Source: Ulota crispa (taxonomy: Eukaryota; Streptophyta; Bryopsida; Orthotrichales; Orthotrichaceae). Taken from it: a DNA stretch of 64,000 nucleotides. This document shows, in pieces, positions 5,377 through 62,008 of this stretch (position 1 is its first letter; the number at the start of each line of letters is the position of its first letter). The translations under genes and the position numbers were made by a program. Where the stretch lies: positions 16,410,358-16,474,357 of the forward strand of contig OY987244.1 of assembly GCA_963920765.1 (NCBI GenBank), written 5' to 3'. The notes under the pieces are model-generated. The model was not told the DNA's origin. It was given only the letters and a program-made list of their open reading frames with translations, and did no database searches.

Positions 5377-5908
5377 ATAAATTACAAATGCAGCGATTAG
5401 GAAGCTTTATAAATCACCGTTACAGAGCATAACCCTAAAAGACAATGCAAAGCCAGACAGAGGCAACACGTTTCGTCCTGGAATTCTAGCCAAGGAAACA
5501 AAAGTATGTCACTGGAAACTCTTACCAGCCAAGCCCAAACAAGAGGTCCGCACTACACCCTATGCATCATCCATAATCTGCACAAAATCCAAAGGAATCA
5601 CTATTGCGAGCGTTGGAACCAAGTTGGACTAGTAACATCCCCCTTCGACTGTAATCATTTGACTTATGAGGTGAGTATTATCATCATCATCAGCCCTGGG
5701 GGATGGAAAACCCAACACAGAAGTACATTATAATGAAGAGAAGAGAAATCTTGGCAAAACCATAGCTAATAAATATTCCACTGCAAATCCATATGACCTA
5801 ATTATTTCCTCTATCAACAGCAAGCAACGCAGTTGCAAATGTCACGAGGGTGTGAGGAAACCCTAATTGGTAGCTAGCTACTGAGTTAACAATTGCTGAA
5901 GTACTTAC
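5377..5908 (-). other. 3' intron, last exon and UTR region of the DHHC gene
   Basis: Downstream of the donor at 5908. Acceptor-like sites on the minus strand include TTTGCAG (about 5794), CCCCCAG (about 5695) and TTGTGCAG (about 5580). Each would give only a few more codons, so the true end of the protein cannot be chosen from sequence alone. Confidence 0.5.
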
Positions 5909-6989
5909 AGTTGAAACAGGAGGTGGGGCGGGCCATGTGGTCTAACTCGTCGGCGCTCGGGAGGACGTAGATGGGGAACTCGGAGCTGGGGGTGCAGCAA
6001 AAGGAATGGACGTTGGCGTCAAGGCCTTGGCTAAAAGGGTGCACTTTGTCCGGGAGAGTACGGAGGTACGTGATGCGGCGTCGCCGGGTCAATTCATACG
6101 TGGTTTGGTTGGTCATGGCCAAGAAGGAGTGGAAGAGGAAGAGCGTGATGAGGAAGCACTCGGTGGTGATGAGCGCCAGGATGACGAGCAACACCAGCGA
6201 TTCCTGCGGCACCGACGTGGTGCCGATGCTCCGCCCGAATGCGCCGATGTACCACACAATGGTCCACATCACGAGCGCCGTCTCGTAACAGATGTACCAC
6301 CAGAACTTGCGGTGGTTGCTCTGCCCCACGCACGTCCCCAGCCATACGCAGTGGTGGTCGAAGCGCAGCACGCATTTGTCGCAGTCGTGACAGTGCTTCG
6401 TCCGCAGTGGCTGCCAGTAGTGGCAGTAGGGGCACCGCCCCCCGGCGTTGCCCCCGCTTGACAACGATGAGCTGTTGGACGCGCGCACCAGGTGACGCCC
6501 ATCGCCGGTGTCGCGCTTCACGTTCTTCGAGTTCAATAGCAACGGACTCGCCTCGGAATGCCCACCGGCTGCTCCTGGCTTCCCGTTCAAAAGCCGTGAC
6601 GATGGCTGGCAGGCGGAGTGCCCGGATGCGACCTCTGCAAAGGAACCATAATAATAGGAGCTCCGACCTGCTTCAGCTGCTGCGGTGGACGATTGTGACG
6701 ACGCCCACGCCCGATTCCCACTTCCATCCAACGCTGACTTGGCCCGCGCTTCGTACCCGACGTCTTTGCGCAACACGTCTTCCAAGTACCCCGGGGTTGA
6801 TCCCGCCGTGCAGCAGTACTGAATCACCACCACCAGCAACAAGAGATAGTAGCACCCCGCCCACCACGAGTACGCCATCGTGCTCCTGTACAAATCCGAG
6901 TCCAGGAACAGCAACCCGCCCACGCCCACCACGTGCACCACCACCCACATCACTCTCACCCCCCATCCGAATTGCCACGCGCTCGGCAT
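5909..6989 (-). CDS. PAT10-like: DHHC-type protein S-acyltransferase, PAT10-like (large 5' exon)
   Basis: Encodes a polytopic enzyme that palmitoylates cysteines of membrane proteins. Translation from ATG at 6989 gives 360 residues. There are two membrane segments (about 10-30 and 40-60), a Ser/Gly/Ala-rich linker, then the zinc-binding cysteine-rich domain (from RCPYCHYW at 185) with the catalytic DHHC at 211-214. Two more membrane segments (about 228-250, 265-290) and a TTYE motif (296-299) follow. The RTKHCHDCDKCVLRFDHHCV stretch resembles Arabidopsis PAT10, which acts at Golgi and vacuole membranes. The frame is open upstream to 7040, but the first ATG of the membrane domain was preferred. 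After residue 360 the sequence reads AACT then GTAAGTAC, a strong donor, so the nearby stop is intron read-through. The short C-terminal exon lies below 5900 and is not resolved. No other intron is seen in this part. Confidence 0.88.
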
Positions 6990-7640
6990 TGCCAATTCGC
7001 TCCCTTGTATCCCACACCACAATTCCCCTTCCCTGCTCACTTGGCTACCTTCGAATCTTCATCTCTCAGCCCACCACTTGGGTCCCCTGAATTTCAAACT
7101 TAGGGTTTCAGGTCCTAATCTCTCGGGTGCTTGCCCAATCCAAATCCTCCTGTTTGAACCCCACCCGAGCCTGGAATCACACACACAAGCACGCTACCCT
7201 GGGTCATATTCCACAGCACGAGCTTGCAAACAAAGACGAAATAGGGCTGCGTGGCAAGCTCGATGGAGTTGAGGGAAGTGGGGTTCTATTCGGAACTACA
7301 GGAGGAGTGAGGGAATCATTATTGTTAGTTGTTAGCAACTGAATTGGGAGCTGTTCTGACACAAGAAGCGAAGAACTCCGCGTTGCAGATCTGATGACGA
7401 CTAAGCTACGACGACGACGACGACGGAGCGATCTACGCCACGAGGGAGGGAGCGAAGCAGGCAGGGCAGTGAAGGAGGGGGATGAGCCAGGGCCAGAGCG
7501 CACGCACTCCGCCTGCATCGCACTCCATCTGGGCTTCTCCCGCGGTTGGGCGGCCTTGGGTTCCTGGTCCTATCCCCGGGGATATCTCATCTTATGACCG
7601 TGATCCCGAGTTCCCGACCCACGCCAGAAGGTAACACAGC
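6990..7640 (-). promoter_or_regulatory. G+C-rich 5' region of the DHHC gene
   Basis: Sequence upstream of the start codon is markedly richer in G+C and CpG than the repeats beyond 7.65 kb and holds no transposon end. It probably includes the 5' UTR and core promoter. A (GAC)n-like run lies at 7409-7424. No TATA box or start site can be assigned with confidence. Confidence 0.5.
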
Positions 7641-9659: not shown

Positions 9660-9663
9660 TTAA

Positions 9664-11183
9664 CCCCTAGATGACCAAAGGGCTCCATATGGAGGGGACC
9701 GTATATTAGCGCTACGGTTTGTTTTTGTAGTGAGGGTGCTGAAGGGGGAGGGGGTTTGTCAATTGCACCGCATGATGCGTGTGTTGCAAGCTTGCAATGC
9801 CATAGCAATTTGATTCATTGCAATCGCCCGTTGCGTTTGGAAATGGGCAGATGCATCGAACGCGCTACGGTTTCTTCGGGCAACCTGACAGCTAGCAGGT
9901 GAAACGTAAATCTACAGTGCGGTGTCAGTGCTACCTAGGTGGCTTCATCATGCAAAATGGCGGTTGTGTGTGGCCAGCGTGGAAGATGGGCAGTTACGGT
10001 GCTGATGTGGAAAGAGCGAGACTCAAAGTTTCAGTAGAATATTCTTTTGGCGCAAGGATCAACCTCTCATTCACCATAAATGACTGAATCTATTGCACCT
10101 CCGCAGCAAATCAGTGCAGCTAGGCCGCCGCTACGGTTAAGTCCTACCTTGAACACTTCCAATGTTGATGCACAGATGGAAACCGCCTCATTTTCAATGG
10201 AGGCACCGTCCCTCTTCAGGCGTACTATGCGTGTGGGATTGCATGGAAATGCTTATGAATAGAGGCTTGTGCTTGCAATGTTGTTTTATGAACATTCCAT
10301 CTCTACAACGCAAGGTGGTGTCTCTACATCGACAACGTTTAGATCAGTCTACGCATCCAAAACGAGTGTAACAGCTTGGGCATTGACGACACAGCTCACT
10401 ACGTGCGTATTGTTGACGTTGCGTGTGGTTCATGCAAGCATCGACGGGGCTTTTCAGTACCTGCACTTCTAGGAGCAATGCTTTGTCGACCCGCATTGAG
10501 AACTTTTCTCAGCACCAACAGCTTGTTTCCCGCGGTGGCCGTTGGGTCAAGGTGAGACTGTGGTTCTTTCAACGTCAACAACCGCTAAAGATACTTTGTG
10601 ATTTCCAGCGGAATGTGAACAACATTGGGCACATTGTATCCCTCTCATCAGTTCCAAATTCATGTCACTTTGTACGGTTACCTCGTCCCTAACGCGGTTC
10701 CGTTCATCAAAGTTGCAATGTGGACTTCAAGCCGGTTTGGTTGTAATCAAATCCCACATAATTCAACTCCAAGTTCCCCATAGCAACATAACAATTCACC
10801 AGCATCCAACAAAGCCAAGGCTTGTATATTAACAGCACGACAAGTATGGTAGGTTCAAAAGTTCATAACGGCTCACATACTGTCATAAAACAAGAGTGAA
10901 GGGCTTTTATAAAGTGAACAAATAAAGTTCATGTTCAATGGTCCATTCACGATCACGCCGACGCCTTTAAGGTTCCAAAAATGCCAGGCAGCTTACACAA
11001 GTCCTCAACATCCGCTACATAAAGAGAAACATCAATAACTACATGTTAGGCCTTATAACAATTACAAATCCAACCCTGGCAATTCTAAGCTAGGCCTCCA
11101 TCAAACAGCTATTTGGTCCTACGTATCGTCCAATGCTCTCTAAAACTTTGGCCGTATTGCAAAATCAACCTCAGCACCAACTC
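9664..11183. other. non-coding left arm of the piggyBac element
   Basis: 1.5 kb between the left terminus and the end of the transposase. It starts with a perfect CTCCATATGGAG palindrome near 9683. Several short frames on both strands, none convincing. Confidence 0.5.
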
Positions 11184-14100
11184 TCATGTCTTGTGCCAAA
11201 AGTCCATGCAAAAGCCTGGCTGCGTGTGAACGTGGACGTAGCACTTCCCTTTGCACATGAAGGCCTTTTCACAACCCCCATAGAAACGTCTGGTCCGTCT
11301 GGTGCAAACTATGCACACACGCCTCTGAGTGTCATCGCTTTTGATCATGTGAAAGCCAAGTTGACCGAATGAGTGATGCAGGCCTCTCACCACCCCAAGC
11401 TCCATATGCGGTCAGACAAGGGCCATCCCTAGCTCATAATGCCATTTGAGTCTAGGATCAACTAGTAGCCCAACCCTCTCAGCATCACCACAATACAAGA
11501 CATATGCGTTTACACAAGAAGAGTCTAATGCAAACATGAAGATGCAATGCCACCACTTCTGCAACTGTGTCTGCACAGTGTAGTTCCCCTGCTGCTGATT
11601 GACGACGTCGATTCCACGCATGTAGCTTTGATACTCAAGGAGAATGGAGTTAGTAGGGAAGTCAACTCTATCTTGCTTGATCCTCCTCCTTACGACTGTC
11701 CCCTCTTTGATTGGATTTGTAGCCGTGTTGAGCAACCAAATTGGCCTAGAATCTATCCAGCAGATCACTGAAACCGACCTGGAACGGAGCATCTTGGTTA
11801 TCAAAGTACCCATCAGCGGTAGATTTGCCTTGGGAAAACCAGCCAATGAAGTGGGAAAACCCTTAGAACCTTTCTTAACAGTCCCCGTCGCGTAGAAGCC
11901 TCTCTCAAGCAAGCGCATAAACAACTTCACGCCTGAAAAAAAGTTGTCTGTGACAATGGTGTGTCCTTTGTGTTCAAGCCCTCGAACTACTTGAAGCACC
12001 GTCCTCACCTACTAAAGTTCCAGCCTCCACTTCTGCTCTTGCCCCCAAATAAATTGACACATTCAAAACATATTTGCCACAACAAAGCAAATTCTAGTAA
12101 AAACAAAGCAGGACAGTACATGAAATTTGAATGAGAAAACTACAAGAGGGGAACATACAATGGGTTCAAAAATCCTTGGTAGACATTACTAGGCAGTAGT
12201 ACGGCCAATAATTACAAGCATGATCTTCATTTCCTATCAGACAATTTCTGATCAAAGCATAGTCACGAAGTTCCTACATCCATTTCAATGCCAGCAAGTC
12301 TACATCCGTGTTTTCTACCATTTTGTTGAATCAGTTCAAATACGAGGGGTCCAGTAAATGCACTTATTGATAGATCTCACGAGTTCTGAAAGTATTGTGC
12401 AAAGAACTTGAGATTGATCCCAGAATACATACATATACATATTAGAATTGAAATATTGATTATAGAACTCACCTTGACTGACTGGACGCTAAGGTCTAGA
12501 TCTTGATTCCAAACCAGATGGGCTTGCCTTTCATGTACTATCGAATGGCGCAAAATCTGCCTTTGTATGAAACCATAATTTTGTCAACAGTGCAAATGGG
12601 TTCATTGTTATAGAGTGATTGACTAATGCAAGTGAATCTCTCCACCACTCCTCAGACCTTGCTATCTTGTCGTACCTTGGTTCTGATTTCTTGGGCATTA
12701 GATCCTTGGTATTAACCAAATGTAGACACCGCACAATTGCCTCAAATCGGTAGCGAGTCATCACGACCGAAATAATTGGACAGCTGTAGAAATATCGGAT
12801 GTCCCAGTACAACTGTCTGTGAGGTACAACCTTCAAATCCATTAGAATTAGTACCCCAAACCAACAAAAAATCTCCTCTTCAGTTACATCGACCCAATTG
12901 TGGCGTCCATTTAGGAGATGCAGGTGCTTGTGCAAAGCTTGCTTTGCATACCTGCACAGAGGGGAGGATAGACGTGGTGAGTATGCAGTAAAGTACCGCA
13001 ATTTCAGGGTACAATGCAACAGTACTTGATGAGATACGATGTTGCTTACAAGTGTGTTTTCTAATTCTGACTATGGATTTCTAGATTATGAATTCAAGCC
13101 ATACTATCTCTTTGACTGTTGCAAACGATGGTAGGAATACTAACTTCCCCAGAAGAAGCAATACTCAAACACCAAGTCCAAGTTCTACACCTAGAAAGAC
13201 AAGGGGGACAACGCTACACTACTCTAGACAGGTTTTGAGTCCACGTGGAGTACTGCGGATCCAATTGAAGGCAGGCGACGACAACTTACAGCAACCTTGC
13301 ACTGGTTTACTAGGCCTCTCACAATATGTCCCAAAAGTGAGCATGCAAAAAGCTCTAGACGTTAGGATTTGGTAGTTGCTAGTTCTACCCAAGAAAAGGA
13401 AAGACTAGTAGCCTCCATGTTCCGAGGTCTTCCATGTTTCAGCTAAAGAAGCAATGGAGCCACAATAGAGAAAGTACATGTACTTACAACATGGGTGACT
13501 ACTATGTTTCGGAAGGGATGTTACAATTTTCAAAATAGAAGCGGCATTTTCAAGGAGAATTCCTACTTCAGCGACAAGAGATAGAGAAGTTTAGTTAGCA
13601 TTTAGAACATCAATCACACTTCAAGTTCATAGAATGTTGTTCCCATATGGAATGAAGGCTTTCAAGAAATGCTCACTCACTTATTGGTTTTGCAAACAAC
13701 TGGGGCTAGCATATCTCCAGGCCAGAACTGCTTGAAGTACTTAATTGGGGTTGTTGGAACCATCCGTAATCTCCCCTTGGCTCCTGATTCAGGTCCATGG
13801 AATTCTTGCTTGCCCAGAAGTGTCAAATTTGGCTCCTGCCATTGATCATCCGACCACTTCTCTTCAATCAACCAATTCGTCAAGTCCTCGATAGGGTCAT
13901 ACAACCCAAGCTCAGCCATGGGTAATTTGTGGAAAGAAGTCGCCGGCAACAAGGGCATGTCTACACTGCTGTTGTCCTCAAAATCGATGTTCTCTCCACG
14001 CCAGTCAACATTGCTAAGATTGGAGAGTGAGTCCGTAGTTCTAGCCGGAGAGGTCACATCCCCAAAAAGAGAATCATACGCCGGATCTGGTTGCGCTGAT

Positions 14101-14393
14101 GAATCCCCAAAGTTCAACGTTTGCTGGGTTGTCCGGATAGTGGAAGCAATGTTATCCATCTCCATGTCGATCACCGAGAGGTCACGTACTCTAGTTGACC
14201 CCCCAAAGTCCACCGTAAAGATTGGCATCTTTGTGATGGGATGGTAGAATTGCTCGAGAACCTCCCTTGCAAAGTGAGTCAAGCCCAGAGTCATCATGTA
14301 GTCAAGGCCCAGAGCCCTCAAGGGGACCACAATAGTTACATTTGTTGGCCATGCTGCTAGATCTATTCTCTGTTCTATTCTAGCAAAAATGGC
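11184..14393 (-). pseudogene. piggyBac-type transposase (DDE_Tnp_1_7), broken
   Basis: Exon A (13681-14393) holds an acidic N-terminal region ending in PIKYFKQFWPGDMLAPVVCKTN. A GT-AG intron (12952-13680) joins it in frame to KYAKQALHKHLHLL. The catalytic core follows: WVDVTEEEIFCWFGVLILM, MTRYRFEAIVRCLHLVN, first Asp in TVDKIMVSYKGR (12583-12585), YMKGKPIWFGIKI, a second intron starting at 12472, second Asp in TDNFFSG (11946-11948), third Asp in MRGIDVV (11607-11609), and the QKWWHCIFMFALDSSCVNAY helix. After one stop, the tail (11184-11405) carries a Cys/His-rich finger with CIVC, CEKAFMC and HVH. Damage seen: in-frame stops replacing the Gln before YMKGKP and the Trp after GIKI, a TGA before the finger, and frame changes before the first Asp and before RTVLQVV. 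The three catalytic Asp are kept. Not functional as read. Confidence 0.88.
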
Positions 14394-15779
14394 CTGTACT
14401 CACTGTCCTTTGCTAACAGCTTTCTGATTTGCCGTCTCTGCCTCGATGGTGAAGGGGCACATGTTGATCCCACAGCTGTGCAACCATGGCCAATACGGTC
14501 CTCAAGATTGTTGTGCCAAAGTGCTAGAGAATGGCAGCCCAGGTGTGAAGTCCTCCAAGGAAAATCAAAGGGGACATGGAGCATTCGGTGTTCGCTTGTA
14601 CGTGGAATCGGAGGAAATAGAAGCCTTGTACTTCTGCGGCCACATGGGTGTTACAAAAGAAGCCATCCCCATTACTGGAATGTCCAAACAAGTAATGTCA
14701 ATGATATCCTCAATGACCTTGTTCTCCTGCTGAGATTGTGTTGACAGAGCCTTGTCCCTGCAAAGGAAATTCTAGAATGAATACCGTTGTTCATGGGACC
14801 CTACACTTGCATTGTATCACGGGCACTGGTAGGAACTGAAGGTATTCTAAACCTCAACTTTATATGCACCTAGCTAATACGGTGTCCCCACTCAAACCTC
14901 ATGTAGATCACAGAAGCAATATTTTGAAATTAGACTGAAGTTGAATGTGCAGCTCAAAGCTGGGACTCCATGAAATGCCATGTCTGATACAAAGTTGGCA
15001 TTCGTTCCTAATCAAATGGTACAACACTAAGTAAAGCAAGTCCCCGCCCTTGTAAACTGCAGTAGACTAATCCATCCAATGAGCCATGTCACAAAGCAAA
15101 GTGCACCCTTTTTATGGCAACAAAGAGGAAGGAACACTTGCCTTGGGGTGAGTCAGCTTGTCTTCTTTGGCCGGAGAAGAATGGGACTTTGTTGGATTGG
15201 TGCAATTCCTAGAGGGGTCCACCATGGGGGAGCGCCACAAGTTTGCTGATTTGCCCCCCTGCCCGCGCCTTGAGTCTGAGTCATACTCTTTTGACCACCC
15301 ACAGCACTGCATCCTCCACGCTGCCCTTGCCCTCTTTAAATTTGGGGTGGGTTAGGATGTCCTGCCGATGAATTGCCATCTACAAATGCGGCAGAGCTTG
15401 CGACATCTAACTCTCGGCCCGGAGAGGAACACTTGCGTCGTAAACCTCGTCCCCCTATTGACCTTGATCCGCCCTCCCGCCGCGCCTGACGTCAATTCTC
15501 CCACGCGCCATTCCGCTTGTGCTTAGCGTGTCCACAAGGGCTAGGAGGGCATTCTCTACTCAAATTTGAAAGCGATCGCTAGGAGTCACATGCGGATTTG
15601 GCATCCTTGAAGGTAGCAGGTAAGACTCTTCTTGATCGCCTAGCCAAGGGGGAGTGCCCGCCATCGGCATGCAATGCTCTTGTGTCTCCTGCAACAACCT
15701 TGGCATTGGTGTCAGCATCTTTAGTGAATCTGGCACTACATTGCTGTGGTCAAAGGTTGCATTCCTCGGACTTGACCCA
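14394..15779. other. 5' middle of the piggyBac element, unresolved
   Basis: Overlapping short frames on both strands, for example minus-strand 15560-15964 and 14375-14584. The latter contains a basic RQRRQIRKLL stretch. They may be exons of the transposase 5' region, but no consistent splicing could be traced. Confidence 0.35.
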
Positions 15780-16269
15780 TTAGGCAGGGCAATGTGCAAT
15801 GCCATAGGAGTGTCTTCTCTCTCTATCTCCGATACCAATCTCCTCCGCACGAGCGGCTGGGAGCTCGGCGAGTGCAACGCTTTGCGGATTTGTGCTACCC
15901 TTTGTGCCTCCTCCCGCAAACAAACCATTGTCAGAAGTATGCAAATTTGGGAAGAACTTCTCACAAATCAAAAAATTAACTTTGGCATTGAACCCGCATG
16001 GGTCCCCCTCCTCAATTTGGTCCCTCCACCTCAAAACGTGTTGGATGTGCCTACAAAAAAGAAAACGGTGCCATTGGGGGTCTATTGTTCCTAGCGCCTA
16101 ATATGCACGAGGCAAGAGCAATTGCTTGCACATCCACTCATAGGAAATCAAAGCAACGATGAATGAGCTCTGAGAAACGGTTGCATCGTGATCCAAGGCC
16201 CACCGCTGCAAGAGAGCTGCCTCTGCTTCTAAACCCTTTAGTGGCGCCGCCAAATCCAAGGATGCCATG
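15780..16269 (-). CDS. gene-like sequence in the 5' part of the piggyBac element
   Basis: From ATG at 16269 a frame reads MASLDLAAPLKGLEAEAALL and continues to about 16100 (KQLLLPR). After a T-rich tract ending in GTAG (about 16039) a second open stretch reads HIQHVLRWRDQIEEGDPCG, then a long hydrophilic segment to about 15780. The pieces look like two exons of one protein, though the donor is not clean. They could be the N-terminal exons of the transposase or a second element gene. No family recognised; parts may be decayed. Confidence 0.35.
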
Positions 16270-16840
16270 ACAAGTTGATCATCAGCAACTAAAGTTCACA
16301 CAAAGGAAAACAATTGCGCGCACACAAATCTAGCCCATAATCAAAAGCCACCAAATTGCATAATAATGCAGTAGCAATTGAAGCCGCCAAAACCTAACTA
16401 CCTGCAGCAGGCCGTGCACTACAAAAATTATGTGCACACCCCTTTCAACGCTCACCCAATTTGTGAAGCGTATCCAATGTAACGAAGGACGCCTCCCTAC
16501 CAGCAGCGCAACGTTCAAATGCCATGCTTAGCCAAGCATCTTCCTGCCTAAAAAAAATGAGAATAGAATGCCACACAAGCAATGGGTGGCTACGTCAAAC
16601 TGACCCTCCTTAGGATAGACCCGGAATACCCAAGGTACATATGCCGTATAGCACAAAACGTATAAACGTCCATAGAATCTAGAGGAAGAATCTGCAAACC
16701 CGGCCAAATACTGCAAATTGACAAGGGAGGTGCCAATACAACTTCCACAAAACCACAAGGCAACCCTCCCACCCAAGTCCCTCCAAATACGTAAAAATAA
16801 GGCAAAACTAGCCAGAAAGGGACAGTAGGACGTCCAAGGG
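16270..16840. other. right arm and probable promoter side of the piggyBac element
   Basis: Upstream of the ATG at 16269 on the minus strand. A 112-codon minus frame runs across the element terminus itself, so it is not taken as a gene. Confidence 0.4.
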
Positions 16841-17140
16841 TTAAAAGAACAATTCCAACCTTTCATCCACTTAGGATGGTATTTTGATTTGCCATTTGAA
16901 GACTAAAATTGTTGAAAAATCCAATTAGAACAATCATTTAGAAAAGAGGATTGAGGTATCATAACCACCAATAGCATGATGTTAGGTATCAACAATTATT
17001 ATCCAAAAAACACAAGTTCAATTTTAATATTGAGCCAATGCAATGTCTCTTAGGTCAATTTGAAATTAAAAGAAAAACATTAAGATTTTTTTTTTTAATT
17101 GGAGGGTATTTATTTCAATAAATTGAAATTTCTTGATTTT

Positions 17141-61457: not shown

Positions 61458-62008
61458 GGTAAAATTTTGATGGAATACCCCTAAAATTTGCAATATTTGT
61501 AGAGTTATCTTTGATTTTTCAGAAAATGCATAAATATCCTTGACATAGTTATTTTTCTTTTTCTAAATCATTATTTCTAAATCTTGCAACAAATGTCTTA
61601 ATGTTTAAAGCATAAGAACACATAAAGATGGAACAAATGAGTTGAAAAAAATGCTTACAAAACTACTTTAAGATGCTCTTTTGAGATGTCAAGGATATTT
61701 GTGCAATTTCTGAAAAATCAGGGGTGTCTATATATATATATATCGCAAATTTCTAGGGTACTTACACAAATGTCACAGATATTTATACAAATACTGCAAA
61801 TTTTCAAGAGTATCTATACAAATATCGCAAATTTCAGGGGTATCTATACAAGTATCGCAAATTTCAGGGGTATCTATACAAGTATCGCAAATTTCAGGGG
61901 TATCTATACAAATATCGCAAATTTCAAGGGCATCTATACAAACATAGCAAATGTCAGGGGTATCTATACAAATATAGCAAACTTCAGGGGTATCCATCAA
62001 AATTTCCC
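61458..62008. mobile_element. TIR MITE (GGGAAAATTTGATAG family) with internal tandem expansion
   Basis: The outer ends GGTAAAATTTTGATGGAATA and, read inward from the right, GGGAAATTTTGATGGATACC match the element at 53955-54266. The right arm is expanded by the 30-bp array at 61741-62000. No clear target duplication. Confidence 0.75.
61741..62000. repeat. 30-bp tandem array, about eight units
   Basis: Units of the form TATCGCAAATTTCAGGGG plus TATCTATACAAG. The sequence is part of the MITE end itself, so the array grew from the terminal repeat. The 30-bp period keeps frames open on both strands, which explains the 123-codon and 75-codon open frames here; they are not genes. Confidence 0.9.

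Follow-up and report, generated by a model that had tools for sequence, protein, structure and literature searches.

A decayed copy of a long, intron-bearing piggyBac-superfamily transposon in the moss Ulota crispa

The element and its features

The 64,000-nucleotide stretch of the Ulota crispa genome analysed here, hereafter the window (C3:16410358-16474357, in an assembly of 274.8 Mb and 157 contigs), holds at 9660-16844 a full-length element of 7,185 bp that runs from TTAA to TTAA and carries its gene on the minus strand. It is almost certainly an inactivated copy of an autonomous DNA transposon of the piggyBac superfamily, resident in a moss chromosome. A prior reading of the window from its letters alone, the sequence-only reading, had identified a piggyBac-superfamily transposon there, and that identification stands. 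The features are collected in Table 1.

Table 1. Features of the piggyBac-superfamily element, in window coordinates
Feature	Position	Strand	Evidence
Whole element, 5' end at 16844	9660..16844	-	Alignment breakpoints against L035; termini of five full-length copies
TTAA target-site duplication, 5' side of element	16841..16844		Sequence; termini compared
5' terminal inverted repeat CCCTTGGACGTCC	16828..16840	-	Copy termini; family pattern, 14 matches against 0 in control
Conserved N-terminal domain A (about 120 aa), one in-frame TAG	15900..16274	-	tblastn, alignment, genome search
Coding stretch after domain A	15563..15898	-	Frame common to L035 (40% aa identity); partial matches in L052, L053, L057
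Arg/Gly-rich stretch, ending near PPxWxPLGIAxxQxSPI; then AGGCAAGT	15177..15452	-	Copy comparison
Exon(s) N-terminal to DDE domain (LEDFTPGLPF..., DWRGE...QWQEP...), presumed start	13681..14726	-	Copy comparison
Intron 1, GT...AG intact	12952..13680	-	Comparison of 10 copies
Transposase exon with first catalytic Asp (TVDKIM)	12473..12951	-	DDE_Tnp_1_7, E 1.8e-15; three stops, frameshift near 12660
Intron 2 (approximate), donor intact, acceptor AG changed to AA	12074..12472	-	Comparison of 10 copies
Transposase exon with TDNFF and GIDVV	11412..12073	-	DDE_Tnp_1_7, E 2.4e-23; frameshift near 12000
C-terminal Cys/His-rich domain, after in-frame TGA	11187..11411	-	Sub-threshold zf_PCFS4, E 0.0023
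3' subterminal motif GCGCTACGGTTTGTT	9709..9723, again 9862-9876	+	Repeat listing
3' terminal inverted repeat CCCCTAGATGACC	9664..9676	+	Copy termini
TTAA target-site duplication, 3' side of element	9660..9663		Sequence; termini compared

Ends and full-length copies

A relative on contig C1, L035, can be aligned along the element, and similarity ends at the TTAA on both sides. Full-length copies were delimited at five loci, the window, L035, L051, L052 and L053, with lengths of 7185, 7495, 7222, 7652 and about 7547 bp, respectively; their flanks differ (12 bp compared), and TTAA is intact at both ends in the window copy and in three of the other four. The terminal repeats are 13 bp long. At the 5' end they start with CCCT in three copies, the window copy included, and with CCCCT in two; the sequence TTAACCCYTGNACGTCC fits four of the five, L051 having diverged (TTAACCCTTAAAGGACC). 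The 3' ends, read as reverse complement, are similar, each with some base differences: TTAACCCCTAGATGACC in the window, TTAACCCTTGCATGACC in L035, TTAACCCGTAAACGACC in L051, TTAATCCTTGGATGACC in L052 and TTTATCCCTTGGATGACC in L053. L035 and L053 start with CCCT at this end, and the other copies with CCCC, CCCG or TCCT. Counted by eye, the 3' and 5' repeats agree at 9 of 13 positions in the window copy and at 11 of 13 in L035. The 9-mer ACCGTAGCG recurs within the last 400 bp in four of the five. When a 26-base pattern of the 5' end was matched to the genome with no more than three mismatches, it found 14 sites, against none for the reversed pattern used as a control. The 5' end is also seen in L055 and L056; L054, L057 and L058 are not delimited at both ends.

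A passage of PMC10175614 gives piggyBac elements terminal inverted repeats that measure 12-19 bp and start with CCYT, and the moss repeats conform, with variation at the 3' end. The TTAA duplications at 9660 and 16841 and the CCC-type ends had both been read from the window copy alone; the search for full-length copies with the same ends places the termini at those two TTAA sites. The length of 7.2 kb, flagged at the same time as long for the superfamily, is real, because the four other full-length copies measure 7.2-7.7 kb, compared with about 2.5 kb for piggyBac itself according to a passage of PMC10813416. A nested insertion as the cause of the large size is ruled out, the other four being equally long.

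Some matches to the 5' end have no transposase match listed nearby. Three identical variant ends, TTAACCCCTAAACGTCCTAGCGTGCC, at C3:2162207, C3:6585152 and C3:10447302, possibly mark a younger or non-autonomous subfamily, and the family ends at C6:16158546 and C10:11821359 possibly belong to deleted copies.

Transposase domain and introns

Pfam model DDE_Tnp_1_7 matches the window on two separate exons, at 11412-12008 (E 2.4e-23) and 12531-12950 (E 1.8e-15), and matches L035 with E-values of 5.6e-32 and 1.2e-25, so that the Pfam check proposed for the superfamily assignment upholds it. By phmmer, the best PDB matches are the piggyBat transposase (4.5e-10) and the transposase of entry 6x67 (0.0012), which we take to be piggyBac of Trichoplusia ni. 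A PHROGs search with the DDE exons gave nothing of weight, and a scan of bacterial and archaeal genomes found no relative. The motifs TVDKIM, TDNFF and GIDVV, singled out earlier for three Asp residues that are presumably the catalytic ones, are all present in the window copy; among the ten copies compared, the first Asp is kept in nine, the second in ten and the third in eight. The window copy has Asn (DVVNQ) where all nine others carry a fourth Asp. The Cys/His-rich C-terminus, likewise noticed before, recurs across copies of the family, in L035 in another frame; Pfam returned no match over its cut-off for this tail, only sub-threshold ones, and its position and composition agree with the C-terminal Cys-rich domain of the superfamily, with putative zinc binding.

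The ten copies are the window copy and nine other good matches from a genome search with the last exon of L035, and having been chosen among good matches they are not a random draw. Two introns interrupt the transposase domain at identical codon positions in all ten. For the first, the boundaries given by the sequence-only reading are exact (AATAA/GTGAGT...GTGCAG/GTATGC), and removal restores TNKYAKQ in frame; the second, at about 12472-12074, is an addition to that reading. The donor GT is kept in ten of ten copies for intron 1 and nine of ten for intron 2, and the acceptor AG in seven and six, respectively; all seven lost acceptors read AA.

The moss family shares with T. ni piggyBac and piggyBat the DDE_Tnp_1_7 domain, TTAA duplications, short repeats starting with CCC, the three Asp residues and a C-terminal Cys-rich domain, but, unlike theirs, its transposase domain is interrupted by introns and preceded by a long coding part that contains an unnamed domain. 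A passage of PMC3902484 describes the transposase domain of mobile piggyBacs as usually, though not by definition, lying in one uninterrupted open reading frame (ORF), in contrast to the two introns found in every moss copy compared. For a piggyBac that is mobile and multicopy, it is therefore unusual to have the transposase domain interrupted by introns, and this, together with a conserved domain that matches no known family, makes the element notable, with no claim to uniqueness.

Copy number and lineages

At least 199 distinct piggyBac transposase loci are spread over contigs C1-C11. By identity to the last exon of L035, 42 fall at 59% or more (close relatives), 27 at 45-58% and 60 at 33-44%; the remaining 70 were seen only by the DDE_Tnp_1_7 search. 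Because only the best candidates were scored (116 of 528 for DDE_Tnp_1_7, yielding 120 matches, and 134 of 387 for the L035 last exon, yielding 136), these counts are lower bounds. Matches within 2.5 kb were merged into one locus, so two pieces of one element lying more than 2.5 kb apart would be counted as two loci. The DDE_Tnp_1_7 search of 14 control genomes gave no match.

A tree of 43 loci plus a piggyBat fragment, built on one exon from decayed sequences, shows several deep lineages. The ten intron-bearing copies group together with support of 0.75, rising to 1.0 when L025 is included. Other piggyBac lineages of the same genome (L003, L005 and L060, for example) have the same domain, but with the DDE region matched uninterrupted; they occupy separate branches and show mostly 33-45% amino acid identity to the L035 last exon.

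Three pairs of matches with equal or near-equal scores lie on opposite strands, 15-109 kb apart (C7:18203169 and 18223004; C2:36765124 and 36779670; C10:676128 and 785346), and possibly represent inverted segmental duplications.

An upstream coding part with a conserved domain

The earlier gene description holds for the transposase exons but missed a long coding part upstream of them, which begins with a conserved region designated domain A. It is detected by tblastn in all ten copies compared, and the alignment has 15 invariant columns. None of the ten members has a Pfam match over the cut-off for domain A, the best match in PDB has an E-value of 0.11, and Pfam searches of the upstream stretches as a whole gave nothing of weight. 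A genome search with domain A returned 120 matches. On the same strand and within 13 kb upstream, it accompanies 39 of the 42 transposase loci at 59% or more last-exon identity and 23 of the 27 at 45-58%, or 62 of 69 related transposases overall; counting matches on the wrong strand or downstream, as a control, gives only 1 of 42 and 0 of 27. Ten of the 51 remaining matches, all weak (E 2.4e-6 to 5.7e-4), are on the same strand as a DDE_Tnp_1_7 match and no more than 5 kb upstream of it, with none in the control.

How this upstream part relates to the transposase exons is a choice between one protein and two. Several hundred base pairs without a conserved frame separate the Arg/Gly-rich stretch from the next conserved exon, as might be expected if the element carried a separate second gene for an accessory protein. 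Both parts are, however, on the same strand, and the gap has candidate splice signals at its two sides: AGGCAAGT, a possible GC-type donor, is kept after the Arg/Gly-rich stretch in four of five copies compared (L035 has AGGCAAGC), and CAG precedes the next conserved exon in four of six (L053 has CAA, L051 nothing clear). Conservation of these signals suggests an intron joining the upstream part to the transposase exons, and for this reason we slightly lowered our estimate for a second gene, which we now regard as a doubtful though serious alternative. The upstream part is more likely the N-terminus of a transposase of about 1000 residues, to which it would be fused by splicing, than a second protein.

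A decayed fragment of domain A also occurs in a repeat of about 1.07 kb adjoining a TTTAGGG array at the right end of C8 (C8:21157899-21158973; L062 3900-4974). The repeat was found in at least 20 places, the other 19 at 74-89% identity and two of them partial (best 40 of 177 candidates scored). Seventeen of the 20 lie no more than 500 kb from an end of contigs C1-C10, a zone that makes up 3.8% of that sequence. It appears to be the remnant of a piggyBac element, dispersed by duplication of subtelomeric segments.

Decay, selection and age

The sequence-only reading overlooked that the element is no longer intact: it is a pseudogene copy belonging to an old family. In the blocks compared it has eight in-frame stops: the first DDE exon and the region preceding the DDE domain have three each, domain A has one, and the last stands just ahead of the Cys-rich tail. 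It also has frameshifts near 12660 and 12000 and has lost the second acceptor. Over four blocks, the copies contain 84 stops (TAG 48, TGA 29, TAA 7), of which 52 are accounted for by Trp to TAG (18), Gln to TAG (17) and Arg to TGA (17). This spectrum fits decay of the C-to-T type, for which we infer cytosine methylation as the cause.

Mean ratios of nonsynonymous to synonymous differences per site (pN/pS), each from 45 copy pairs, are 0.45 for domain A, 0.45 for the stretch before the DDE domain, and 0.26 and 0.23 for the DDE exons. Within the exon or exons at 13681..14726, three stops fall in the first part, and the value of 0.45 refers to the second. Third codon positions change most, and synonymous differences are saturated at 0.74-0.87. 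These substitution patterns demonstrate purifying selection on the transposase exons and domain A. Because low pN/pS is combined with synonymous saturation, the copies derive from long-separated lineages kept under selection, rather than from one recent burst.

Interpretation

By analogy with the superfamily, the transcript of an intact gene of this kind would be spliced and its translation would yield a DDD transposase. The Cys-rich tail of this protein may help in recognition of the subterminal motifs and of the short repeats at the ends. The transposase would cut the element out at TTAA by way of hairpins on the transposon ends, a route of excision described in a passage of PMC8151067, and the excised element would be reinserted at another TTAA. 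The family has lasted, under purifying selection, in several lineages that diverged long ago; the copies read were afterwards inactivated, for the most part by C-to-T type changes of the kind that cytosine methylation would produce.

Several observations weigh against reading the locus as a copy of a once-mobile transposon with two introns that later decayed in this way. The 3' TTAA of L053 is altered, and the 3' repeats vary among the five full-length copies. All ten copies read contain stops, with no intact family member among them. Both introns are predicted from splice signals, frame and conservation, and in five of the seven lost acceptors an AG lies one base further on, for which reason a shifted acceptor is conceivable and may be used in those five copies. 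The observed/expected CpG ratio is 0.58 in the element against 0.58 and 0.54 in the flanks; because depletion equals that of the flanks, composition gives no separate support to methylation.

A domesticated piggyBac-derived gene, serving the host rather than moving, would account for exons under purifying selection, and a passage of PMC3902484 describes a transposase domain with introns in the domesticated PGBD5 and ciliate piggyMac. The moss gene belongs instead to an element that is present in many copies and bounded by TTAA and terminal repeats, the flanks differ among the five full-length copies, it has 42 close relatives in the genome, and every copy read has stops. Low copy number, loss of transposon ends and an intact ORF, the marks of domestication, are all lacking, and on these grounds we reject this explanation as highly improbable. 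A recent arrival from another organism, or contamination of the assembly, might be entertained since few piggyBacs are reported from land plants (passages of PMC2528002 and PMC12732532) and the element has a GC content of 46% against 37-39% in its flanks, but it is the least credible explanation of all and is rejected, the element lying within a 34-Mb contig in an assembly of chromosome-scale contigs (C1-C10, 41.4 to 15.8 Mb), with 199 loci spread over C1-C11 and saturated synonymous differences between copies. The family may have been acquired by an ancient transfer.

The transposon reading bears on how piggyBac elements are distributed among plants. As of 2008, a passage of PMC2528002 credited plants with just five superfamilies of cut-and-paste transposons and did not count piggyBac as one of them. 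A 2015 survey lists PiggyBac for every group it studied, land plants among them (PMC4438587), the superfamily also appears in a repeat table for a fern (PMC6890710), and plants are named among piggyBac hosts in general statements in passages of PMC3902484, PMC8086355 and PMC10813416. The sequence-only reading was fair in remarking that descriptions of such elements from land plants are rare; given the survey and the fern table, however, the superfamily itself is not new there. Among the matches listed in a search of open-access full text, which did not cover Repbase, we found no description of a moss piggyBac family, a result that does not imply absence from print; text matches to "piggyBac" in a paper on the moss Niphotrichum proved to be the word "piggybacking".

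piggyBac is a workhorse transposon of genome engineering, yet little has been written about how it has fared naturally in land plants. At least 199 transposase loci in several deep lineages indicate that a land plant has been a favourable host for the superfamily. The family described here indicates that introns in the catalytic domain are compatible with mobility of a piggyBac and that an unnamed domain accompanies the transposon. We consider it slightly better than an even bet that mosses hold a large and very old piggyBac radiation, characterised by an N-terminal domain of about 120 residues, an Arg/Gly-rich linker, a Cys-rich tail and a spliced transposase of about 1000 residues. The N-terminal domain would span the intron-bearing lineages and be detectable upstream of some lineages without these introns, one clade having gained the catalytic-domain introns and kept transposing.

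Host and surroundings

The plant host, too, is borne out. Two adjacent LEAFY-C matches, read as one gene, contain KMRDYVHCYALHC, and the Asp at that position (312 in Arabidopsis) is, we presume, the moss type of LEAFY. About 2.6 kb from the element, at 5886-7058 on the minus strand of the window, lies an exon of a host gene that encodes a DHHC palmitoyltransferase domain (E 4.9e-31). Far to the other side, at 61780-62001, a 30-bp tandem repeat of 7.4 copies with 89% matches lies inside a plus-strand open frame.

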